Source of the DNA: a virus
Virus record (IMG/VR): IMGVR_UViG_3300003323_000115
Coordinates: 1 to 64,000 of that record
Length of the DNA: 64,000 bases
Strand: one strand, 5' to 3'
Each line of letters starts with the position of its first letter. Within the stretch, counting starts at the first letter, position 1. Both the position numbers and the translations under genes were made by a program. The notes under the pieces were generated by a model. The model saw only the letters and a list, made by a program, of their open reading frames with translations, had not been told where the DNA came from and ran no database searches. Shown piece by piece: positions 2,269-46,626 of the stretch.

Positions 2269-2676
2269 ATGGCTATCGATTTCAAGAAGACCGCTTCCAA
2301 CAACACCGGCAACAAGAACGCCCAGGACGAACGTCCGAAGTCCGAGTTCTGGGTCAACATCGGCTACAACGTCGATGTCCAGGTCACCGGCGAAGGTGGC
2401 GAGAGCAGCACCGAACAGCGCTTCGTGTCGCTGCCGGTCGGCCTGCCGCTGGACATCAGCCAGAAGGTTGCCATCAAGGGCAACGATCCCGAGTTCGTGG
2501 CGCTGCAAACGGCACGCAACGAGCTGCTGGAGCAACTGATCGCTCACGCCGAAGCATCGCTGAAGCCGGGCGAGACCACCGAGCTCAACCTCGTAGTCCA
2601 ACTGCGCCGCATCAACGGTGCACCGCCCGTGATCAAGTCGGCGGACAACCCGTTCAGCAAGAAGCTCACCTTCTGA
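2269..2676 (+). CDS. early hypothetical protein (135 aa)
   Basis: Starts MAIDFKKTASNNTGNKNAQD behind the ribosome site CTAGGAGTACTTTCATC; longer in-frame extensions would run back across the promoter-like hairpin and are not used. The first 25 residues look disordered. The rest has a beta-rich core (FWVNIGYNVDVQV, RFVSLPVGLPLD) and a helical stretch (ALQTARNELLEQLIAHAEA), ending NLVVQLRRIN...FSKKLTF. Its codon use is more GC-rich and uniform than its neighbours', like the virion and SSB genes, suggesting strong expression. No family recognised. It sits alone between a promoter-like hairpin and a terminator, so it is probably a highly expressed single-gene transcript. Confidence 0.75.
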   Translation: MAIDFKKTASNNTGNKNAQDERPKSEFWVNIGYNVDVQVTGEGGESSTEQRFVSLPVGLPLDISQKVAIKGNDPEFVALQTARNELLEQLIAHAEASLKPGETTELNLVVQLRRINGAPPVIKSADNPFSKKLTF

Positions 2677-2690
2677 TCTGTCTGAACCAA

Positions 2691-2725
2691 GGAGGAATAC
2701 CAGCAATGGTGTTCCTCCTTTTTAG
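2691..2725 (+). terminator. intrinsic terminator
   Basis: GGAGGAATACC (2691-2701) pairs with GGTGTTCCTCC (2708-2718) with one mismatch, then TTTTT. It ends the single-gene transcript of 2269-2676. Confidence 0.85.
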
Positions 2726-2801
2726 TTCTAGTTGATGGATAGTCAAACTAAGGACTAAGTAGACCAAAACTCAACTTTCAGGCGATAGCCTACCAAACAC
2801 T

Positions 2802-3368
2802 ATGCTTCATCATGACAAGCTCCGTTTCGCTGGCATTGGGCCGCGAGACACACCCAAGCATATCTTGGGGCAAATGACCGAGATCGGTCGAATCTTCGCC
2901 CAGGCAGGCTGGATTGGCGTCTCAGGCTATGCCGAGGGAGCCGATCAAGCATGGATGGCTGCGATCCCCGAGAACCAACAAGAGATCTGGTTGCCCTGGT
3001 GGACCTACAACGGTGCACGTGAGCACCAAGATCCTCATGGCCGGTTCAACCGTGTCCAGGTGACCCTGGAGATCCGTCAGGTTGCCATGGAGCACTACTC
3101 TGGCAACTGGGACGATCTCAAGGACGGTGCACGCCTGCTGTTCGCAAGGAACGTGGCCATCATGGCTCGTGACACGCTCGACACAGCCGTGAACCTGGTG
3201 GCCTATTGGCAAGATCCCAAGAAAATCGACAGCCAGTATGGCGGCACCAACCATGCCATTCGTGTCGCCAAGACTGCTGGCATTCCCACTTTCAACATCG
3301 GCAACGAGGATGAACTCGATGCGATGGGAGAACTCGTCACCAAGCTCACCGAGGAACACGCCAAGTGA
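2802..3368 (+). CDS. SLOG-fold (DprA/LOG-like Rossmann) protein
   Basis: 188 residues with the hallmarks of SLOG-superfamily nucleotide-binding proteins: FAGIGPRDTP near the N-terminus (about residues 9-18), then GVSGYAEGADQAW (about 38-50), the G-G/S-x-G-A-D loop that binds nucleotide or ADP-ribose-like ligands. The middle holds aromatic residues (WLPWWTYNGAREH) and a later NVAIMARDTLDTAVNLVAYW. Some SLOG proteins sense or process NAD-derived signals in host defence (for example Thoeris ThsA), while others are DprA-like. As an early phage gene it could bind or destroy such a signal; this is inference. It overlaps the next gene (GTGA), implying coupled translation. Confidence 0.78.
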   Translation: MLHHDKLRFAGIGPRDTPKHILGQMTEIGRIFAQAGWIGVSGYAEGADQAWMAAIPENQQEIWLPWWTYNGAREHQDPHGRFNRVQVTLEIRQVAMEHYSGNWDDLKDGARLLFARNVAIMARDTLDTAVNLVAYWQDPKKIDSQYGGTNHAIRVAKTAGIPTFNIGNEDELDAMGELVTKLTEEHAK

Positions 3369-3547
3369 ACTGCTCAATCTGCCACAAGCCGATTGTGCTG
3401 GTCCCTTCGGCTGAAGAACGTGCACGTAAGTATGGGGGACAACCCTCGTACTACGTGCGTCTGTTCAAAACCCACAACCACTGCTTCATCGAACAACGCA
3501 ATCGTGACACACGACTGCTGATGCAAAGGACTTCAAATGACCAATGA
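3365..3547 (+). CDS. small zinc-ribbon-like protein (60 aa)
   Basis: The GTG start overlaps the previous stop (GTGA). The N-terminus is MNCSICHKPIVLVP with C-x2-C, and a later HNHC may complete a zinc site (C3, C6, H37/H39, C40). The rest is basic (ERARKYGGQPSYYVRLFKTH). No specific family. It is part of a tightly packed run of coupled early genes. Confidence 0.68.
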   Translation: MNCSICHKPIVLVPSAEERARKYGGQPSYYVRLFKTHNHCFIEQRNRDTRLLMQRTSNDQ

Positions 3548-3875
3548 AGAAATCGCACAAGCCCGCAAGGACTTCGAACTGGGACTGCTGTTCCACTTCG
3601 CAGACATGTTCCCTGACGAGAAACCGATTGGTTCACTTGTCATGGACGACGATGGTCGCTACCAGAACAAGCAGGTGCAAGCCGCATGGCGTGGCTATCT
3701 GATGGGTCACAAGCACACCCGTGGCATGTTGGAGCGCTTCCATCCGGATCGCTTCGTCAGCAACGCGATGACCACCGAACTGTGCGTGGCAATGGAGATG
3801 GCAGATTCGGACCAGGAATGGGCCGAGGACATCTTCAACAACGTGCTCAAGATCGCGGGAGCATTCCCGAAATGA
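3537..3875 (+). CDS. hypothetical protein (112 aa)
   Basis: Soluble and helical. The start overlaps the preceding gene by 11 bases. Contains DKPIGSLVMDDDGRYQN-like acidic turns and AAWRGYLMGHKHTRGMLERFHP, with His/Arg/Trp residues clustered about residues 50-70. Phage proteins with a central NxxVQAAWxGY segment are common and uncharacterised. The next gene starts inside its stop (ATGA). Confidence 0.7.
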   Translation: MTNEEIAQARKDFELGLLFHFADMFPDEKPIGSLVMDDDGRYQNKQVQAAWRGYLMGHKHTRGMLERFHPDRFVSNAMTTELCVAMEMADSDQEWAEDIFNNVLKIAGAFPK

Positions 3876-35519: not shown

Positions 35520-35927
35520 ATGAGATACATCATCAACACGGAGATCGGACTGCTTGCCGATGCCATCCTACGTGGTGGTTTTACTGGCGAGGCCAAGTTC
35601 TCCAACAACGGTTGTACAGGTACCGTTGAGATCTTCGGGGACGACTTCATTGCATTGGAGCTCACCGGCTTCTGCAAAGAGACGTTGTTCATCGCTTACG
35701 ACACCGAAGAAAAAGACTACATCCTGGTCGGTCGCTACGACATCCGTAATCGTTTCATCGAAGTACCCACTGTAGACGATATCGTCAAGCTGGCTTGGAG
35801 TACCTACAAGGACTACAAGAGCAGCAAGGAATGGGGCCGTCCTACCGAGTGGGACAGCCTCTGGAAGAAAGCGGGCTACATCACCACCAAGACCATCCAG
35901 AAGACGGTCGAGGTGGAGAAGGATTAG
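35520..35927 (+). CDS. hypothetical protein at the convergence point (135 aa)
   Basis: Starts MRYIINTEIGLLADAILRGGFTGEA after CAAGGAACCAAC. Beta-rich, ending in a helical part (DIVKLAWSTYKDYKSSKEWG). No family recognised. It lies after the terminator, so it needs its own promoter; 35429-35519 shows no clear one, though it has CAGCC...GGCTG-type short repeats. Its stop overlaps the stop of the vRNAP gene on the other strand. Confidence 0.7.
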   Translation: MRYIINTEIGLLADAILRGGFTGEAKFSNNGCTGTVEIFGDDFIALELTGFCKETLFIAYDTEEKDYILVGRYDIRNRFIEVPTVDDIVKLAWSTYKDYKSSKEWGRPTEWDSLWKKAGYITTKTIQKTVEVEKD

Positions 35928-38900
35928 AACAGGATGTTCGCCCAGGGATTCAAGTGCAGTGCACGGAAGCCCTGACCAATACCCAACGACCCCCACAGGG
36001 AGCCACTGAGCCCCTTGCTGAACAGGTTATCCCCGAGAGGTGTACCCACCCCACTGGGAGCCGGTGTCAGGCCCGCCAGCAGTGCGTTGACGGGGTTGTT
36101 GCGGATCATGGACAGAGCCACCTTGGTCGAACGAATCTTGAAGTTGTAGAACCACATCATCCCCATGGCTTCCATGTAGCCACGGAAGCGTCCAGGCAGA
36201 CGATCGTAGTTGACGAACTCTTCGGTCACTCGTGCCAACGCTTGCTCCTTCGTGAGCTTCTTCCGCATCGTCAGATCGTCATAGAGGACGGCCTTGGCCA
36301 GGAAGTCACCATACTCGACCGCCTTCTGAAGGCCTTCGAACAGTGCGGTGTCTTTCGTGACAAGTGCATACCGTCCCACGGTCTGGGCAGCGCCCGGAAG
36401 TTTGCTCACGAGACGTTCCATGTACGCATGGAGTCGTCCTTCGCTCAGCAGGATCTCATCCCTGCTGATACCTGCGTCGGAAATGGAACTGAACTCACCT
36501 GCTTCAATCAGGGGCCAGATCGACAGACGGCGATGGCTGTCTTCAATCGACTGGATCTCTGCTTGCAACTTCCTGGTGAGCACGGTGTTGCCTTCAGCAG
36601 CACGTAGCTCAGCCTCAGCATCGATTGCTCGCAGCTTGCTCTTCACATAGGCGTTGACCTCCGCAGTCTTGCGGGGGAATTGACGCACCATGGAACCAAG
36701 AGGAACACCACGTCCGGCGAGTTGATACAAATTCGAGACGAAGTTTGCAGCAGGAACGATCATCGACTTCACGACGATGATCACTCGTGCATCCTGCACG
36801 AAGTTCTGGACCGTCTTTTCCGCTTGGACCAGGTAACGATACGCTTCGTTGCCGAAGACGGAGATTGCCAGATTGCGAACCTGATCTTGAGTTGCTTGGC
36901 TCCAGCGAGTGGTACCAGTCCATGCGTCACCAATGGACGCCTGACGGTACCCCATCGCATCCTCAAGCATGTCCTTGCGCACCCAGAAATGGTCTTTGCC
37001 AAACAGAGCCTGTGCAGTCCTCTTGGTCTGTGCAGTCATCAACGACACCGCGTCACTCAGAACCGGATCCTTAGCCAGTGCCCTCTTGTCAAAGAGGTCC
37101 ACGTATTGATCTTTCCCAGTGCCTCGCTGTTGGTCGGCTTCCCATACCTTGTGCAGGGCCTCGATCAGATACTCGTTATAGATCTGACCCGATTGCTCTT
37201 CTGCTTGACGACCACGCCAGATGCCGATGTTCTTGGCAAGGTGCGTGTTGTATTGCAGACGCTGAAGCTGTGCGGGATCGATGCTGCGTTCGAACGCAAC
37301 CGCAACACCCATCTCGTTGTACACGGGGAGAAGATTCTCCGTTGCTTTCTCCTTACCCATATCACGGAAGATCTTGGCCACAAGCTGACGATCCGTAATG
37401 CGACCAGCAGTCATCCCCATGGTGAAGCCAGTTGCAGCATCCACACCGTTCACGGTAGTGCGAACGTTCTGGAGAATGCCTTGATTGAAGGTTGCACGAC
37501 TCGGCGTTGCCGAGAAGTAGTAACCACGGCTGGACTTGGTTGGATCGATGTTCGATCCAGCATAGTCACCGATGCGCTTGTACGAGCGCTCAGCCAAGTC
37601 CTTGAAATTGCTGTCATCAGCAACGATGAGAGACAGACTCTCCGCTTGATTGGAGGGGATGTAGCCCTTGTAGTTGTTGAACTCAGCCTTGCCCGAGATG
37701 GAAGTCTTCGACTGTTCCTCGGCACGCTGACCAACCAGATACGACAGAGCAAATGCAACCCCAACCTTCTCGGTTTGAACCAAGGAAGACAGGGACTTGA
37801 GATCAGGCTCGGCCTGTGCATCGAGTGCATACAGCGAGGTCAGATGGTCCACTGCACGAATGAGTGCATCACTGGGTTTGTCTCGACCACGAGACACTTT
37901 TTCTCCGAACAGATTTGCAATGGCGGTAGCGTTGCGCAGCAGGTTCACACCAGCTTCGCCAGTACGCATGAACGTTGCAAGCTGTTCGGATTTTTCTTTG
38001 AGGCGCTTGGCATTATCCGGATCGATCCGAGCAATGTCGGCTTCCAGAGACTTGATCTCTGCGGTCCGTGCAGTCTTGTCGTCGATCAGGTTGAGCACCT
38101 TGGTGGTGGTCATGCCCGTTGCAACAAGAGATGCAAGGTCAGTCTTCGCCACACCATTGTGAAGAGTGGTCCACTCACTGTCAGACAGTGAACGAGTGAA
38201 CTTCTTGGCAATGGTGGTGGGCACGTGTTCCACGTAAGCCTGACGGACTTGAGTCACGTATGCACGAACCTTCTTGATCTTGTCGTAGACCTCAGCGTTC
38301 TCGCTGGTACGACCGATCATGTCAGTGAGCAGATTCTTCAGCGGAGCCCACAGCTTCGAACGATTCACCTCATGCTGGAGACCGTTGGCAACCTTCTCAG
38401 CAATAGATTCGCTGGTGATTGCAGCCATGATCTTGGCCAGCTTTGCAGTCTGAGTCACGAGAGTTCCGCTGTTGCTGTTGATGACAGCATCAGCCTTGTC
38501 CACAACCTTCTTCGACAGGGCTTCGAGAGCCTGCTTGGCCTTCTCATTGGCTTGATCCACGAAACCGCCAGTCTTCGAGAAGTACTCTTCGAAGGTGTTG
38601 TTTCGTTCTTGGGTCGAGTCGATGATGTGATTCATCAGCGCATCAAGCTGACCTTGAACATTTGTGCTCTTGCCTTCACCAGACATGCGAGCAGCCAGCG
38701 ATTCCATGGCAGTGTTGCCAATCGCTTCGAGCACACCATCCAGAGTACCCCAGTTCTTATCAGCACCCTTAGGCAGTTCCATCTTGGACAGTGCCGTACG
38801 CAGCTTCTCCGAGGTCATCGAGAGAGCCAGGAACTGAGAGAGAAGGGTCGAACGACCTTCCGAATCCACGCCAACACCGAAGTTGCCCATAAGGGTGTTG

Positions 38901-41900
38901 TACTGATCTTGGGCGTAGTACAGATCAGCAGGATGCTGACTATTCGGGTTGTCCATCAGATCTTCCATCACGAGGTTCTTCACGACGTGATCGTAGAGAG
39001 CGTGTGCACGGGACATCGAGGCACCGTTGATACGTGCCTCGGTACCCAGAGCAGATACCACCATCGAGAAAGCGTCACGTTCCTGTTGCGTGGGCAGCAG
39101 GCCATGGGCAGCGAACTCGTTGGTCAGGTCCACGTCTTGCAGCAGAGCAGCAGTCTCAGCACGACGCTTCTGTTCCATCGCAGGCGTGAGTTGCACGTCA
39201 CGATCAAAGCGAGCATTCACCGTGTCAACGATGATCTGCTGGAAGCCTTGCTTCACACGTTCCAGACGGTCACTCGTTCCGTACAGCGTGTTGTGAGCCT
39301 GGATGCCGGGAGCACCCTGGAAGCTCACACCCTTTTCTGCTTGGTTCCGAATCACGACAGCCGTGTTGAACAACAGGTTCGACAGCATGTCGTTCTTGGG
39401 AACAGAAGGTGCAACCTTGCGGCCCCACACCATCTTTTTGATGCCTTGCCAGACCTTCTCGGCAATGGCCACCAGGGGCGAGAAAACCTTGTTCTTCTGG
39501 ATCTCAGCCAGCTTGCGATTGGCCAAGCTCCATGCCATGAACTCGTTCACAGCCGAGGCCATATTCCCGAGGTTGACCTCACGATTCACGACAGCGACAG
39601 CGTGCTCGTACAGCGCACGAGTTTCCGGCGTACCAAACCGATTGGTCTGAGTCGCCAGAAACTGCTTCATCATCGCTTCGATATTTTCGATGGCAGTCTT
39701 GGTCGTGGGCTCGACGGTACCGCCGTTGTAGTGAGCCGTCAGGGAATCGGTGACCGATGCATGGATGAGTTCATGCAGCGTCGTTTCCAGAGAGCCATTC
39801 ATCACAGCGATGATCTTGTGCTGGGCATCCGAGAAGCCAGCCAGATTGCCACGTGCAAGCTCTTCAGGCGAAGGTTGATAGGTAGGCATGCCCTTGGCAT
39901 TGAACCAAGCAAGAACAGCCTCAGGCGTGCCCGTCACGAGACGCCAGCCATCAGCAGCCTTGGCTCGGACGATCTCACCAATGATCTGACCTTCAGCATC
40001 TGTGGCCGAAGTCTTCTTGACCTTGCGCAGGAGCTTGTTGATGTCCTTCACATCACCAACCCGCACATCACCATCGGCAGTACCGAACTTCGAGAAGTCA
40101 GCCTGCACATCGATGTTCCAGGGGCTCGTACTCTTCGGTGCTTCCGGCAGGTCAGCAACGACGGGGATGGGACGAATAGTCTCATCCTGCACAACCGGAT
40201 CTTCGAGCACCACAGGCTCAGTGGTGAACTCTTCAGGAGGCGTCATCACCTCGGGAAGATCTTCGATGGTGCGTTGCTTCAGTTCCAGCGCAGGCTGGTT
40301 CTGACGCTCTTCGAGCAGCAGTTGTTGAAGTGCTTCTGCCTTCTGCTCGTTGTCACCCACGAGCTCGATCTTTCCAGGCGTCTGGTAGGGTGCACCCACT
40401 GATGCCATTTGATCCAAGGAAGCAGAGACCTTCGCCAGCACAGCATGGCGTGCATCGATGTCACGGGCAGCGTACTGCACATCATGTTCCAGGATTTGCA
40501 GAGCACCCAGGATGTCTTCCGGGGTCAGGTCTTCAGGAACAGTCTTGCGATCAAAGATCGCCTTGGCGAGTTGCTTCTTGACCTCCAGGTCATTCAACGG
40601 AGCCAAGGACAAACCATCCAGCATTGCCGAGAACATCTCAGCAACAGCCTTCATCGGGTTGCCTTGCCAGGACTCATAGACAGCCTTGTTCATGCCTTGG
40701 CTGGCACCAACGATGTTGTCCAGGGGCAGATTGATACCGTCGAACACAGGCAGGGTTCCACGGATCACTGATGCATCTTGGGATGCGTGCTGCATCATGG
40801 CACCGTCACCGGTACCGATTACCAAGGAGGCGATGCCAGCCACACCTGCATTTGCAGGGCCTTGCACGAACTGGCGAACTTCCATGCCGCCATTGACATG
40901 CTCGGTCATCACTCGACGCTTCTGCTCTACCGACTGGCTGTCAGCGATATAGAACCGCTGGCTACCGGTGTCGATGAACGGATGCAGCGGAGCAAGCTGC
41001 TTCTGGATATCGTCGAGTTCTGCTTGAGTCAGGAACTCGGATTCAGAGAAGTTGGGATTGGCTTCCTTCTTCTCTGCCAGCTTTTGATTCACAAGACGCT
41101 GGAACTCATGCGACAGGAAGATCGACTGCACCTGAGTTGCTTTGCGGATCATCGTGGTTGCATCGTTCAACGACTCGCCAGTGTTGTACGAGATCGCATC
41201 ACGCATCGGACCAACGAAGATGTTGAGCATATTCGTTGCCATATTGTCGAGCTCACCACTGGTGAACTGGAACTTCTCCAGGTTCACATTCGAGTAGCTG
41301 CGACGGTTATCGATCGGTGTATCGATGACAACTTGTTCACCGCGAACAACACGGACTTGCTTGTTGATCAGCGAGTCCAGAGCCGAAGCGAAGGTGGCCA
41401 TGTCAGCCTCTGCATTGGGACCAGGAAACAGACGTTGTGCAGTCGTTCCTTCGTCACCTTGCAGAGCTTCGCTCATGCGTTCATAGATCTTCTCGACGAG
41501 GTTCTGCACGACCTTGCCAGCAATGCCCTTTGCACCCGAACCGTAGACGGTGATCGTCAGCGGGTTCTTGGCGATGCCACGATCCAGCTTGAGCACACCG
41601 GTGTCTTCATCGAAGGACAGATCCTTGCCAAAGAACAGATCCATGACCTTGAACAGGTGACGCATCTGATCACCAACAGGCGAACCAGCAGGATTGGCCT
41701 TGAGACCCATCACCATGGTTTCGGACATCGTGTTCGTGGTTGCCTTGTAGAGGTCAGTGCCGTCATCGAATTCACGATGCTGGTTCATCGTCTTGTCAGG
41801 CTGACCGAAGAACAGGCCACCCTTGCCCATGTTCTTCACCCAGTCAGCAGTGAAGTCACCCATGGAGAGCAGGCCCATCGAGTTGACCGGACCATTGGTC

Positions 41901-44900
41901 ACACCGTCCGCTTCAACGTACAGGTGCGTCTCGAATGCCTTCTTGTCCGTGGTATTGCGAAAGCGTGCTTCTTCCATCAAGGCATGTAGAGCCACAGCGG
42001 ACATGTCACCACCGAGGTTGTCCTTCAGACCCTGCACCGTTGCTTCATCGATCACACCACCAGTTTGGAGCCAAGAAGCAAGGGACTCCACGCTATCACG
42101 CAGTCGGCCTTCGAACAGATCCGACAGTTGCTTTTGCATGGTCTCACGGCTGATCTGATGGACCTTGATACCAAGGGCTTGTGCCTGTGCGAGACGGAAG
42201 GCTTCCAGTTGATCTGCTTGGGTCAGATCCATCACCGAACGAGTCGGCATGATCATCTCACGCAGCATCTTGTTCGACTGAGGGGTGTAGGCACCCAGCA
42301 TCTGAAGACGGCCAACCTTGGACATGTTGAAGCCATAGTGGATCGGGTGACGATCTGCTTCGACACCTGCCACGTCAGCAGCATTCGAGAGCTCGGCCAT
42401 CAAGCCCTCGGCGTAATGGAAGGCATCGACGATTGCTGCATTCTGTCCTTCCACAGTCTTGCGATGCCCATCGTTCCACTTCTGGGCAGCAAGGTCACCA
42501 TTGCCTAGGAGATGCAGCACAGCATCCAGGCCCAGACCTTCCAGGAAGAAAGACGACATCGTGTCGTTCTTGAAGTACGGAGTCTCCTGGTTGGCCTTGA
42601 TCGCTGCCTTCTGTGCAGGCGTGTTCTCGGTGTAGCGGCTGCGCATTTGATGCGTAGCAACCGGAGGACGTTCATCACCGAAGTAGTGAACAGGCGTGGG
42701 CTTCACCAGCATAGCCACATCGATGGCATTCGGGAAACCTGCAATCACACTGTCCTTGCCCATCTTGCTCGTGGTCTTCCAACGAGTCTGCGAGACAGTT
42801 TCCTTGTTGGATCCAACGAGATCAGTGAACGTGAACTCAGCACGTTCAACCAAATCAGCAGCTTCCATGGCAGCAAGCACTTCCGTGGCGATTGCCATGG
42901 GAATGCCTTGCGTGAGACCGGTACCCACATCCTTCGTGGGTTGCAGTCCCCAGTACTGCTCGATCTTGTTGGCGATGGACTGGAGGGTCTCCAGATTCGT
43001 CGTACCAGCACGCAGCATGTCCAGCATCTCTTGGGTCACGAATGCTTCAGGAATACCCAATTGCTTGGCTGCATCGCTGGCATCTTCGACACCACGAGTC
43101 GATGCAGCAGTGATGAACCATTGCAATCCAGCCAGTGCAGCAGCTTGAGCAAGTTGCTCGTTGTAGCGCATGCCACCCTTGCCATCATCCTCCAGCAGGT
43201 TGAAAGCCTTGGTGTTCGGGAAGCGCAGCACATCCTCACCAGCTTGCAGGCGAGACAGCAGGGTCTTTCCTTCATTGGCTCCGCTCTTCGGTGCCTTACT
43301 CAATGCCTTCTTGGCAGCAGCATTCATGGCATCCACCAGCGTGGGTACCATGCCAAGGATGCTCTCCTGGTAGAAGTCAGAGATCTCTTTGGTCAGTGCA
43401 CGAGTAGGCGTAGAACCAAGAAGGGAAGTCAGGCCCTGTTCAGACGACAGTGCTTCGGTCAGCATGTCCAACGGAGATTCCGTTCGGAGCATGCGACTCG
43501 ATTCCTCAGCACGTGGACGGAATCCACGGGTGAAGTAGTTGTTGGTGTTGCCCACGAGACCGGGAAAGACTGCAGCCAGTCCCTTCGGAGAAGGGTTATT
43601 GTCCGGGGCTCGTTCAGCAACCTCGGGGGCAACAGACGAAGGTTGCTTCTCTTCTGAAGTTGTCTCGGTAGGACGTACAGCCGAAGTCTCTGTAGGTTCT
43701 TGCTTACCCTTGGGGGATTCAGTTGTCTGGTTCTCTGCAACAGTACCCTTGGTATCACCTGTTGCACCTTCGGTAACTTCCTGGTTGGAAACCTTCGTGG
43801 TAGCTTCTACGGTAGCATTCGTGCTCACCGTGGGCTCCGTTGCAGGAGCCTTTTCTACAACCAGTCTCTGCGAATCCTTGTATGCCTTTGCCAGATCGGC
43901 GGGGGTGCCGACCAACGAGGAATCCAACGGAGTGACATCAAAATGACCAATTCCCAGTTCCGGGTACGCATCAGCGAGCGCATTCGCAACGCGGCCCACA
44001 GACTGAGCCTCTGCGGCAACACGTTGAGCAAATTGGATCGATCCCTGGGAACCACGGTGAATCTGGATCGGCGTCGTCCCATCACGCCACTCCCGCTCGG
44101 GAGCGGAGACCAGAGTACGGTAGAAGCTCTGACCCTTCGAATTCACATCCCGGCCAGCTACGTTGGCGTTGATCGCACCTACCTTGTTGCTCATGTGCTC
44201 CACGAATTGCATCAGGTCACTGAGCCGGGCAGCAGCCTCATCGAGATTACCCGCGTTGTGCGCAGACCGAACCCCCTTCGCGTATTGGGTCAGCGACTGC
44301 TTAGCCAAGCCCGCCGATTCACCATCAGCCGTCAGAACACCACGGCTCACCCAGTCTTCACTCTTTAGGCCTTGTGCTTGACGCACAGCGTCAAGGTCAC
44401 GAGCAGCCTTGAGTTCTTCACTGATCACCATCAGGCTACGACGACGGGTTGCATTGATGCCGAGTTCCTCGGCACGCTTCAGCATCGCATCCACCGATTC
44501 CGGAGAGAGTCGGCTCGGATCCAGCTCCAGCATGGCGATATGGGCACGCAGCGAGGCACCCCCTTCAGGCGTGGAGATGTCCGTTTGCTCGGTGAAGGGG
44601 TTTGCCTGCACTCGCTTCGAAAGGCTCTCTGCGGCCTTGGCAACAGCCTCACGTGCACGTTCCACGGTGGGGGTCTGTTCCATGTCGTTGATCAGCGACC
44701 GGTATTGTTGGATGAACTGAACAGCCGGGTGATCGTCCGGAAGGTTCTTGAGAGCAGCAGGCTCCTTGACCAGAGTATCAGACAGACCATCGAGAAGCAG
44801 TTGTGCAACCCGTGCGGACAGGTCACCTTCTTCACCGCCCTTCTTGGCATGCTCAGTCAAACGACGCAGCACATCCAGCTTGTCGGTAGAACCATCAAGC

Positions 44901-46576
44901 AGAGAACCAAGGAAAGGAAGAGCCTGCGTCAATTCCGAGAATTGCTCGGGATCGTATTGGCTGGACTTCACCAACTCATCCACGTAGGCATTGGCTTCTT
45001 GCTTGGCCTCCGGGGCAACGGTCTCGGGCAGATCGTTCACAGCGGTCTTGACCGTTTCTGCGGCAGCAGGTGCTTCAGCAGCGGCAGCAGCAACAGCTTC
45101 TCCCACCTTGGCATCAGCCACAGGGGATGCTTCGGTGTTCTGTGCTTGGATACGTTTGCCTCGTTCCAGGAGCGGATTCACGAGAGCAGAGCCAAGGTTC
45201 ACAGCAGTGGTGCCAAGGGTCGTTGCAGCACCTTCAACCAGGTGCGCACCAGTGCGGGGAGCTTGAACCAAGCCAGCAGAGGTGAAACCACCGAGGCCAC
45301 CCAGACCAGCTTGTTCGCCTACCTTATCCAAGAGGTCTTGGTTCTGGTTGGCATATGCCTTCTGGCCTACGTTCTGTGCAAATTGGCCGGTACCGGACTG
45401 GATGGTTTCCTCGACCGTCTCACGCAGTACATTGGCACCTGCATGACGCAGGTTTGCCACCGAGAAGGGGGCACCTTCGAACTTGCTCACCAGGGTACCC
45501 GTTGCAGCAGCGAGAGGCGCAGCAATGGCACCAGCAGTCAGACCTGCCTTGTTAGCAACAGCAACACGTGCCTGCTCGGGAGAAGCACCTTCCATGACCA
45601 GACGACTGAACTCGGGAGACTCTGCGAAGAGCTTCGAGAACGGCGTCTTCATCACTTCGTCTGCGGTCTGCTGGTAGGCACCACCACCTTCCATGGCACC
45701 AATAGCAATCGGAATACGAGTGGCTTCACCGATCTTGGCGAGTTGGGTAGCAGCAGCCGAACCTTCGGTCACCAGACCTGTACGGGCAGCACCAGCACCC
45801 AGGGCCTTGCCACCTGCACCAACCACCTTGCCAACAGGTCCAGCAGCCAGAAGGGAACCTGCACCGGTTGCAGTGAGGTCACCCAGCAGAACAGAGTCGC
45901 TGGCCTGATTCGACACAGCAGTCTTGAGATTGCGTGCCTCACGGCTGATCTTGGCAAGCGTAGGACTGATGCCCGTACCAATGTCAGCTTGTGCCTGGGC
46001 TTCGGAGTCACGGTACTCCAGTTGATTTTCTACTTGGTTCAGATCCCGTCGAGCCTGGAGAGTTGAGCTTTGGCTCTTCTGGAAGGCATCGTTGATCTCA
46101 CCAATGACCTGTGCAGTACGAGCACCAGCGTTGTCATTGATGGCACCCAGGCCGAATGCAGCGATGCCACCAACGGCATTGCCAAGGCCAAGCCCAAGAC
46201 CAGTGGCGGTGTCGTAGAAGGCTTCACCATTGCTTCGAACACCGGAGGCATCTTGTCGTGCCTGACTTGATGCACCTGCTTGACCCAAGAGAAGATTCAT
46301 CCCCTCGTTGGGATACTTCGCCAGGATCTGAGCAGGAGACAGGGTAGCAAGATCGAGCTCTAGACCTTGAGAGGTCTGACGGCCTGCATCTCGCATGGCA
46401 CCAACTGCTGCATTGCGTTGCAGTTGATCCATTTTCGCTTGAGAGGCTGCTGCCACCTCCCCTTGTTTCACCCCCGTCAATCCTTGGATTGCGGACAGGG
46501 GTGTCGCTTCCACAGTAGGCTGGGGAGAAACCGGAGTTGCAGTGGCTTGATTCATCAAGTCTTGAAACGTGGCCAT
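35924..46576 (-). CDS. virion-encapsidated RNA polymerase (N4 gp50-like), giant protein
   Basis: 3550 residues from MATFQDLMNQ; an ATG 16 codons earlier lies in the tail of the upstream terminator and is not used. Polymerase motifs sit in the middle: T/DxxGR SKVGR (R1423), motif A EADGVTNG (D1557), motif B RGIAKNPLTITVYGSG (K1670, Y1678) and motif C VFDGINLP (D1946). The K-to-Y spacing of 8 is that of T7 and N4. The N-terminal 400 residues have Gly/Ala-rich hydrophobic stretches that could enter the membrane in ejection. Residues about 2250-2350 hold a metallopeptidase-like HELIH and EFMAW. In N4 it is injected with DNA and transcribes early genes from hairpin promoters; it is the last gene of the late block. 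Confidence 0.95.
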   Translation of the reverse strand: MATFQDLMNQATATPVSPQPTVEATPLSAIQGLTGVKQGEVAAASQAKMDQLQRNAAVGAMRDAGRQTSQGLELDLATLSPAQILAKYPNEGMNLLLGQAGASSQARQDASGVRSNGEAFYDTATGLGLGLGNAVGGIAAFGLGAINDNAGARTAQVIGEINDAFQKSQSSTLQARRDLNQVENQLEYRDSEAQAQADIGTGISPTLAKISREARNLKTAVSNQASDSVLLGDLTATGAGSLLAAGPVGKVVGAGGKALGAGAARTGLVTEGSAAATQLAKIGEATRIPIAIGAMEGGGAYQQTADEVMKTPFSKLFAESPEFSRLVMEGASPEQARVAVANKAGLTAGAIAAPLAAATGTLVSKFEGAPFSVANLRHAGANVLRETVEETIQSGTGQFAQNVGQKAYANQNQDLLDKVGEQAGLGGLGGFTSAGLVQAPRTGAHLVEGAATTLGTTAVNLGSALVNPLLERGKRIQAQNTEASPVADAKVGEAVAAAAAEAPAAAETVKTAVNDLPETVAPEAKQEANAYVDELVKSSQYDPEQFSELTQALPFLGSLLDGSTDKLDVLRRLTEHAKKGGEEGDLSARVAQLLLDGLSDTLVKEPAALKNLPDDHPAVQFIQQYRSLINDMEQTPTVERAREAVAKAAESLSKRVQANPFTEQTDISTPEGGASLRAHIAMLELDPSRLSPESVDAMLKRAEELGINATRRRSLMVISEELKAARDLDAVRQAQGLKSEDWVSRGVLTADGESAGLAKQSLTQYAKGVRSAHNAGNLDEAAARLSDLMQFVEHMSNKVGAINANVAGRDVNSKGQSFYRTLVSAPEREWRDGTTPIQIHRGSQGSIQFAQRVAAEAQSVGRVANALADAYPELGIGHFDVTPLDSSLVGTPADLAKAYKDSQRLVVEKAPATEPTVSTNATVEATTKVSNQEVTEGATGDTKGTVAENQTTESPKGKQEPTETSAVRPTETTSEEKQPSSVAPEVAERAPDNNPSPKGLAAVFPGLVGNTNNYFTRGFRPRAEESSRMLRTESPLDMLTEALSSEQGLTSLLGSTPTRALTKEISDFYQESILGMVPTLVDAMNAAAKKALSKAPKSGANEGKTLLSRLQAGEDVLRFPNTKAFNLLEDDGKGGMRYNEQLAQAAALAGLQWFITAASTRGVEDASDAAKQLGIPEAFVTQEMLDMLRAGTTNLETLQSIANKIEQYWGLQPTKDVGTGLTQGIPMAIATEVLAAMEAADLVERAEFTFTDLVGSNKETVSQTRWKTTSKMGKDSVIAGFPNAIDVAMLVKPTPVHYFGDERPPVATHQMRSRYTENTPAQKAAIKANQETPYFKNDTMSSFFLEGLGLDAVLHLLGNGDLAAQKWNDGHRKTVEGQNAAIVDAFHYAEGLMAELSNAADVAGVEADRHPIHYGFNMSKVGRLQMLGAYTPQSNKMLREMIMPTRSVMDLTQADQLEAFRLAQAQALGIKVHQISRETMQKQLSDLFEGRLRDSVESLASWLQTGGVIDEATVQGLKDNLGGDMSAVALHALMEEARFRNTTDKKAFETHLYVEADGVTNGPVNSMGLLSMGDFTADWVKNMGKGGLFFGQPDKTMNQHREFDDGTDLYKATTNTMSETMVMGLKANPAGSPVGDQMRHLFKVMDLFFGKDLSFDEDTGVLKLDRGIAKNPLTITVYGSGAKGIAGKVVQNLVEKIYERMSEALQGDEGTTAQRLFPGPNAEADMATFASALDSLINKQVRVVRGEQVVIDTPIDNRRSYSNVNLEKFQFTSGELDNMATNMLNIFVGPMRDAISYNTGESLNDATTMIRKATQVQSIFLSHEFQRLVNQKLAEKKEANPNFSESEFLTQAELDDIQKQLAPLHPFIDTGSQRFYIADSQSVEQKRRVMTEHVNGGMEVRQFVQGPANAGVAGIASLVIGTGDGAMMQHASQDASVIRGTLPVFDGINLPLDNIVGASQGMNKAVYESWQGNPMKAVAEMFSAMLDGLSLAPLNDLEVKKQLAKAIFDRKTVPEDLTPEDILGALQILEHDVQYAARDIDARHAVLAKVSASLDQMASVGAPYQTPGKIELVGDNEQKAEALQQLLLEERQNQPALELKQRTIEDLPEVMTPPEEFTTEPVVLEDPVVQDETIRPIPVVADLPEAPKSTSPWNIDVQADFSKFGTADGDVRVGDVKDINKLLRKVKKTSATDAEGQIIGEIVRAKAADGWRLVTGTPEAVLAWFNAKGMPTYQPSPEELARGNLAGFSDAQHKIIAVMNGSLETTLHELIHASVTDSLTAHYNGGTVEPTTKTAIENIEAMMKQFLATQTNRFGTPETRALYEHAVAVVNREVNLGNMASAVNEFMAWSLANRKLAEIQKNKVFSPLVAIAEKVWQGIKKMVWGRKVAPSVPKNDMLSNLLFNTAVVIRNQAEKGVSFQGAPGIQAHNTLYGTSDRLERVKQGFQQIIVDTVNARFDRDVQLTPAMEQKRRAETAALLQDVDLTNEFAAHGLLPTQQERDAFSMVVSALGTEARINGASMSRAHALYDHVVKNLVMEDLMDNPNSQHPADLYYAQDQYNTLMGNFGVGVDSEGRSTLLSQFLALSMTSEKLRTALSKMELPKGADKNWGTLDGVLEAIGNTAMESLAARMSGEGKSTNVQGQLDALMNHIIDSTQERNNTFEEYFSKTGGFVDQANEKAKQALEALSKKVVDKADAVINSNSGTLVTQTAKLAKIMAAITSESIAEKVANGLQHEVNRSKLWAPLKNLLTDMIGRTSENAEVYDKIKKVRAYVTQVRQAYVEHVPTTIAKKFTRSLSDSEWTTLHNGVAKTDLASLVATGMTTTKVLNLIDDKTARTAEIKSLEADIARIDPDNAKRLKEKSEQLATFMRTGEAGVNLLRNATAIANLFGEKVSRGRDKPSDALIRAVDHLTSLYALDAQAEPDLKSLSSLVQTEKVGVAFALSYLVGQRAEEQSKTSISGKAEFNNYKGYIPSNQAESLSLIVADDSNFKDLAERSYKRIGDYAGSNIDPTKSSRGYYFSATPSRATFNQGILQNVRTTVNGVDAATGFTMGMTAGRITDRQLVAKIFRDMGKEKATENLLPVYNEMGVAVAFERSIDPAQLQRLQYNTHLAKNIGIWRGRQAEEQSGQIYNEYLIEALHKVWEADQQRGTGKDQYVDLFDKRALAKDPVLSDAVSLMTAQTKRTAQALFGKDHFWVRKDMLEDAMGYRQASIGDAWTGTTRWSQATQDQVRNLAISVFGNEAYRYLVQAEKTVQNFVQDARVIIVVKSMIVPAANFVSNLYQLAGRGVPLGSMVRQFPRKTAEVNAYVKSKLRAIDAEAELRAAEGNTVLTRKLQAEIQSIEDSHRRLSIWPLIEAGEFSSISDAGISRDEILLSEGRLHAYMERLVSKLPGAAQTVGRYALVTKDTALFEGLQKAVEYGDFLAKAVLYDDLTMRKKLTKEQALARVTEEFVNYDRLPGRFRGYMEAMGMMWFYNFKIRSTKVALSMIRNNPVNALLAGLTPAPSGVGTPLGDNLFSKGLSGSLWGSLGIGQGFRALHLNPWANILF

Positions 46577-46626
46577 AGTGTACCCTGAATTCGAGATATG
46601 TTGGAGGTAGTGTATCACCCCCAAAT

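Follow-up and report, generated by a model that had tools for sequence, protein, structure and literature searches.

The window analysed here is a stretch of 64,000 nucleotides, comprising positions 1 to 64,000 of the IMG/VR virus record IMGVR_UViG_3300003323_000115. Its minus strand encodes a virion RNA polymerase (vRNAP) with homology to N4 gp50 from end to end, in which a putative metallopeptidase domain, C1, lies between the polymerase and the large C-terminal domain C2. The features are as follows.

35924-46576, minus strand: virion RNA polymerase (N4 gp50-like), 3550 aa from the ATG at 46576
40298-43585, minus strand: single-subunit RNA polymerase domain, residues ~998-2093, from phmmer against the mini-vRNAP of PDB 3q0a/2po4 (E~1e-226)
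39347-40087, minus strand: C1 domain, probable zincin-like metallopeptidase, residues ~2164-2410 (N4 ~2117-2377), from profile, AlphaFold2 (AF2) and Foldseek
39761-39775, minus strand: HELIH, the HExxH motif, whose H2268 and H2272 are predicted metal ligands and whose E2269 is the predicted general base
39542-39544, minus strand: E2345 in VNEFMAWSL, predicted third metal ligand, conserved in 100/102
35927-39346, minus strand: C2, large C-terminal domain, residues ~2411-3550, from phmmer to N4 chains through to the end

Residue 1 in this numbering, which is that of an earlier note on this DNA, is the ATG at 46576. With an alternative TTG start 16 codons upstream, the open reading frame covers 35924-46624 (minus strand) and 3566 aa, and the PHROG family phrog_2206 'virion RNA polymerase' covers its residues 41-3565 (E=0). 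Four Pfam N4 vRNAP domains are found in the protein, and the PDB chains of the full-length N4 vRNAP are matched by phmmer. Motif A of the polymerase (EADGVTNG) and the Asp1946 of motif C are invariant across 28 vRNAPs. The boundary between C1 and C2 was placed by homology with C2 of N4, residues 2376-3500 (PMC12633501). Antisense to the C1 region, there is a 725-aa open frame at 38225-40402 on the plus strand, which is apparently an effect of codon usage and not a gene.

The segment TTLHELIHASV is encoded at 39784-39752 and VNEFMAWSL at 39550-39524 (minus strand), so that the HExxH and the downstream glutamate stand exactly where the earlier note had put them. The codons are 39775-39773 for H2268, 39772-39770 for E2269, 39763-39761 for H2272, and 39544-39542 for E2345. 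H2272 and E2345 are 73 residues apart, as had been stated, and the HExxH lies ~322 residues past motif C (H2268 measured from Asp D1946), in agreement with the ~320 given before. The whole vRNAP contains one HExxH, while 0.047 would be expected from its composition.

Structure prediction had been set beforehand as a check, and the AF2 model of C1 gave the zincin layout (mean pLDDT 87.8, pTM 0.87; pLDDT of the trimmed core 93.5). In the model, a helix, a strand, a helix, and two strands are followed by the HExxH helix, long helices and the Glu helix, with the strands at 60-63, 95-98, and 103-106, the HExxH helix at 111-131, and the Glu helix at 187-200 (model numbering). That is, the predicted secondary structure holds a three-stranded sheet with one N-terminal and two C-terminal helices, as in the zincin core, the HExxH is located on a helix, and the third Glu is located on a later one. 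This order fits the zincin core of the MPTase described by Iyer et al. (PMC5512222).

When the model was compared with solved structures by Foldseek, the only significant matches were the N4 vRNAP structures 9pnt (E 4e-8) and 9pnr (E 7e-8); anthrax lethal factor (E 0.23, probability 0.54) and the weaker PPEP-3 were not significant. Among viral models, matches with probability near 1 were vRNAPs, 'large polyvalent protein' phage proteins, and an internal core protein of Ralstonia phage RSB3. In profile searches of the PDB, the cryo-EM chains of N4 vRNAP were found at E~1e-94, and the best matches outside phage proteins were HExxH peptidases, all of them weak, i.e., thermolysin (E 0.027 with alignment A1) and SprT of Spartan (E 0.34 with A1, 0.026 with A4). 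No Pfam or NCBIfam model scored above threshold on C1, and the Pfam SprT-like model was found in 18 of 63 members, always at E >= 0.023. Overall, the zincin assignment rests on the motif, the order of the elements, the conservation, and the published HHpred result, with modest independent support from the fold.

A non-proteolytic HExxH metal enzyme, for example one resembling the alpha-ketoglutarate HExxH oxygenases linked to radical SAM enzymes, might in principle carry the same motif, and the 2025 N4 preprint names both zincins and these oxygenases because they share HExxH (PMC12633501). The model argues against this reading: the glutamate that would be the third ligand follows on a later helix, as in gluzincins, and the predicted core has the zincin layout. 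In addition, the C1 profile reaches the thermolysin and SprT peptidases in the PDB and not the oxygenases. We hold such a non-proteolytic enzyme to be very improbable.

Conservation in relatives, the other check set beforehand, was found for H2268, H2272, and E2345. All 27 phage vRNAPs fetched, which span N4 to LUZ7, Litunavirus, Vibrio, Acinetobacter, and Roseobacter phages, have an HExxH at the equivalent place and the downstream Glu as well. In alignment A1 (14 members), the invariant columns are one Gly plus the H, E, H, and E only. For an unbiased survey, vRNAPs were collected by polymerase motif A, which avoids selection on the HExxH itself, and this yielded 106 distinct vRNAPs, 102 of them assessable. 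HExxH and the distant Glu are present in 98 of these 102. When this set was aligned to the C1 profile, the H, E, and H were found in 101/101 and the Glu in 100/102, and these four positions are the most conserved of the 223 C1 columns (column mean 46%). A chance HExxH is thus ruled out by the conservation, and the claim of a zincin-type metallopeptidase domain with a third-Glu site after the polymerase motifs is backed by this conservation and by the predicted fold.

The conservation figures are taken from the sets picked by polymerase motif A. Another set, A2, was gathered with a pattern containing HE..HA, so that HExxH conservation in it exists by construction; its use was confined to the model and the C1 profile. 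Full-length MAFFT misaligned C1 of distant vRNAPs, which is why the HExxH is missing from its invariant columns, and regional and profile alignments were used instead. A scan of viral contigs with the single protein returned no matches, and alignment-based scans were needed; alignment A7 was too divergent for scanning.

A few vRNAPs have lost the site. In two separate contigs, L208 and L209 (IMGVR_UViG_3300025860_000072 and 3300025632_000022), C1 lacks its N-terminal half, and with it the HExxH, and has Ala in place of the third Glu (QMNAFLLW), but its C-terminal half is still there; what remains scores about E 1e-22 or better against the C1 profile. These two are also both of the exceptions among the 102 vRNAPs at the Glu position. 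Since the Glu is lost only in vRNAPs that are without HExxH, the two elements behave as one site. Losing the HExxH along with a residue over 70 positions distant is the expected pattern for a single metal site, and L208 and L209 are, as far as their sequences tell, a natural dead version of C1. A third case is L174:1120-6633 (IMGVR_UViG_3300049933_000037), a vRNAP without any C1, in which the polymerase and C2 remain, joined by a linker of ~125 residues, and C2 shares ~45% identity with intact relatives over 1128 residues. L174 is a single metagenomic contig, and its absence of C1 could be an assembly artefact. No separate zincin acting in trans was found in the L174 record, which is a fragment, nor any other C1 copy in the records of L174, L208, and L209, all fragments; an HEELHA match in the L174 record belongs to a small unrelated ORF. 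All three losses rest on metagenomic contigs. Since L174 is without C1 and the site of L208 and L209 is dead, C1 is apparently not universally required.

Another apparent loss, L115 / L219 (IMGVR_UViG_2700988792_000001), was rejected, for the record is frameshifted and both elements are encoded in two frames. The vRNAP frame of this record breaks directly after the HExxH and resumes in another frame, probably because of a sequencing error.

These observations bear on whether C1 could be a catalytically dead structural module, kept for the packing of polymerase and C2 or for encapsidation, with metal-site residues that are merely structural. In N4, C1 does contact the polymerase and C2, and the C-terminal third of the vRNAP is needed for encapsidation (PMC12633501, PMC5512222); the retention of the C-terminal half of C1 in L208 and L209 despite the lost site points the same way. 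However, no residues of C1 are better conserved than the four of the site, and a purely structural role does not predict that the HExxH and a Glu 73 residues apart are lost together while the packing parts stay. We thus consider a dead module quite improbable.

The domain type is also found away from the polymerase. The C1 profile finds PDB 9sfn_G at E 3e-13, an 'Internal virion protein' that is gp37 of phiKMV-type Pseudomonas phages. This protein (L105:3250-7263) has no RNA polymerase domain and is annotated with an endolysin domain, and its C1-type zincin lies at residues ~418-557 (HEAVHAAT ... KELVAWGLT); no paper naming a zincin in phiKMV gp37 was found in the open-access literature. An internal virion protein of a Xanthomonas phage and a DarB-like protein of Serratia phage Parlo contain a C1-type domain as well, and all three proteins retain the H, E, H, E set. 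The loci noted for this zincin in internal virion proteins of phiKMV-like phages and in a DarB-like protein are, besides L105, L107:2500-5679 and L106:4431-15725.

Some vRNAPs carry additional domains of this sort. In those of Roseovarius phage RPP1 (L014, at residue ~1290) and Dinoroseobacter phage DFL12phi1 (L015, at residue ~1085), a second, different zincin is located before the polymerase, and it matches Peptidase_M90 above the Pfam curated cutoff. The vRNAP of RPP1 also has an ART-PolyVal (ADP-ribosyltransferase) domain. In two other vRNAPs the C1-type zincin is duplicated, with a copy on either side of the polymerase (L095, ORF residues 207-383 and 2629-2826; L267, residues 318-541 and 1772-1999).

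As for the target of C1, it might cut the vRNAP chain itself once inside the host, for instance at the linker between the RNAP and C1, and so free the polymerase from the autoinhibitory C-terminal domain. Self-processing was already proposed by Iyer et al. in 2017 (PMC5512222), and in N4 the C-terminal domain lowers transcription and the disordered linker of ~23 residues to the RNAP adjoins C1 (PMC12633501). Against this, N4 vRNAP is packaged unprocessed (PMC5512222) and the purified full-length gp50 showed 'no evidence of degradation' (PMC12633501), although the purification conditions may differ from those permitting self-cleavage. The same two observations disfavour the trimming of the polyprotein, which the earlier note had considered. 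In addition, the linker between RNAP and C1 varies in length, and a conserved cleavage-type motif sought there in 77 vRNAPs was not found. The C1-type domain in polymerase-free proteins (phiKMV gp37, DarB-like) also speaks against self-processing, as does L174, where polymerase and C2 form a single chain that has no C1. Overall, self-processing after ejection seems unlikely to us.

Based on the above analyses, C1 is probably an intact zincin-like metallopeptidase domain of the 'MPTase' kind known from polyvalent proteins, placed in an N4-type vRNAP. H2268, H2272, and E2345 are predicted to bind a zinc ion and E2269 to activate water, which would likely make C1 a peptidase. C1 would ride into the host together with the polymerase and would there cut a host protein or a partner ejection protein in trans, and not its own chain in the virion. 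For this cleavage of a host or ejectosome protein after ejection, a weaker claim, we see about an even chance; it is favoured because N4 vRNAP is uncut and undegraded, the linker has no conserved motif, the domain occurs in unrelated virion proteins, and some vRNAPs contain extra peptidases. More tentatively still, it is possible that C1 is a host-directed effector protease injected by schitoviruses with the polymerase, a module common to the phiKMV gp37 and DarB-like proteins that is sometimes duplicated or joined by a second peptidase and is lost where its target is absent. The open-access literature searched holds no report of zinc, activity or substrate for C1. C1 is present in nearly every vRNAP examined, and the active site is its best-conserved part. 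As a laboratory phage with a solved structure, N4 is suited to asking whether an injected protease is needed, and for what.

The domain is already known, and this phage is one more carrier of it. The earlier note was unaware of such a domain in N4 vRNAP, but it has been published repeatedly (PMC5512222, PMC8472413, PMC12633501). Iyer et al. (2017, PMC5512222) described a zincin-like MPTase in N4 vRNAP at aa 2130-2448, used HHpred to unite it with the zincins, reported one or more such domains fused to N4-like RNAPs, and proposed autoproteolysis or processing and host-protein cleavage as functions, the two that the earlier note suggests. A 2021 review (PMC8472413) includes the domain in its drawings of the N4 and Cbunavirus vRNAPs. 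In the 2025 cryo-EM preprint on N4 (PMC12633501), the domain is resolved under the name C1 (residues 2124-2375), and its conserved HExxH is pointed out. Our contribution is one more member and a broad conservation table with a few natural losses; it is no new kind of domain.

The peptidases of the M34/PPEP type (anthrax lethal factor, PPEP-3), thermolysin, and SprT/Spartan are likewise HExxH zincins, though the matches of C1 to them are weak and insignificant, and by sequence the HExxH helix alone aligns. The MPTases of polyvalent proteins (Iyer et al. 2017) are closer: they likewise combine an HExxH with a Glu on a later helix in an ejected multidomain phage protein, and the structural matches of C1 include 'large polyvalent protein associated domain' proteins. 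A difference is that none of the Pfam models searched covers the C1 clade. The direct counterpart is C1 of N4 gp50 (PDB 9pnr, 9pnt, 11gp; PMC12633501), which has the same place in the same protein and the same four residues (N4 H2228, E2229, H2232, E2310). The two are 38% identical in the C1 alignment. The spacer from HExxH to Glu is shorter here than in N4 (77 vs 82 residues), and the linker differs, which is ordinary sequence divergence.
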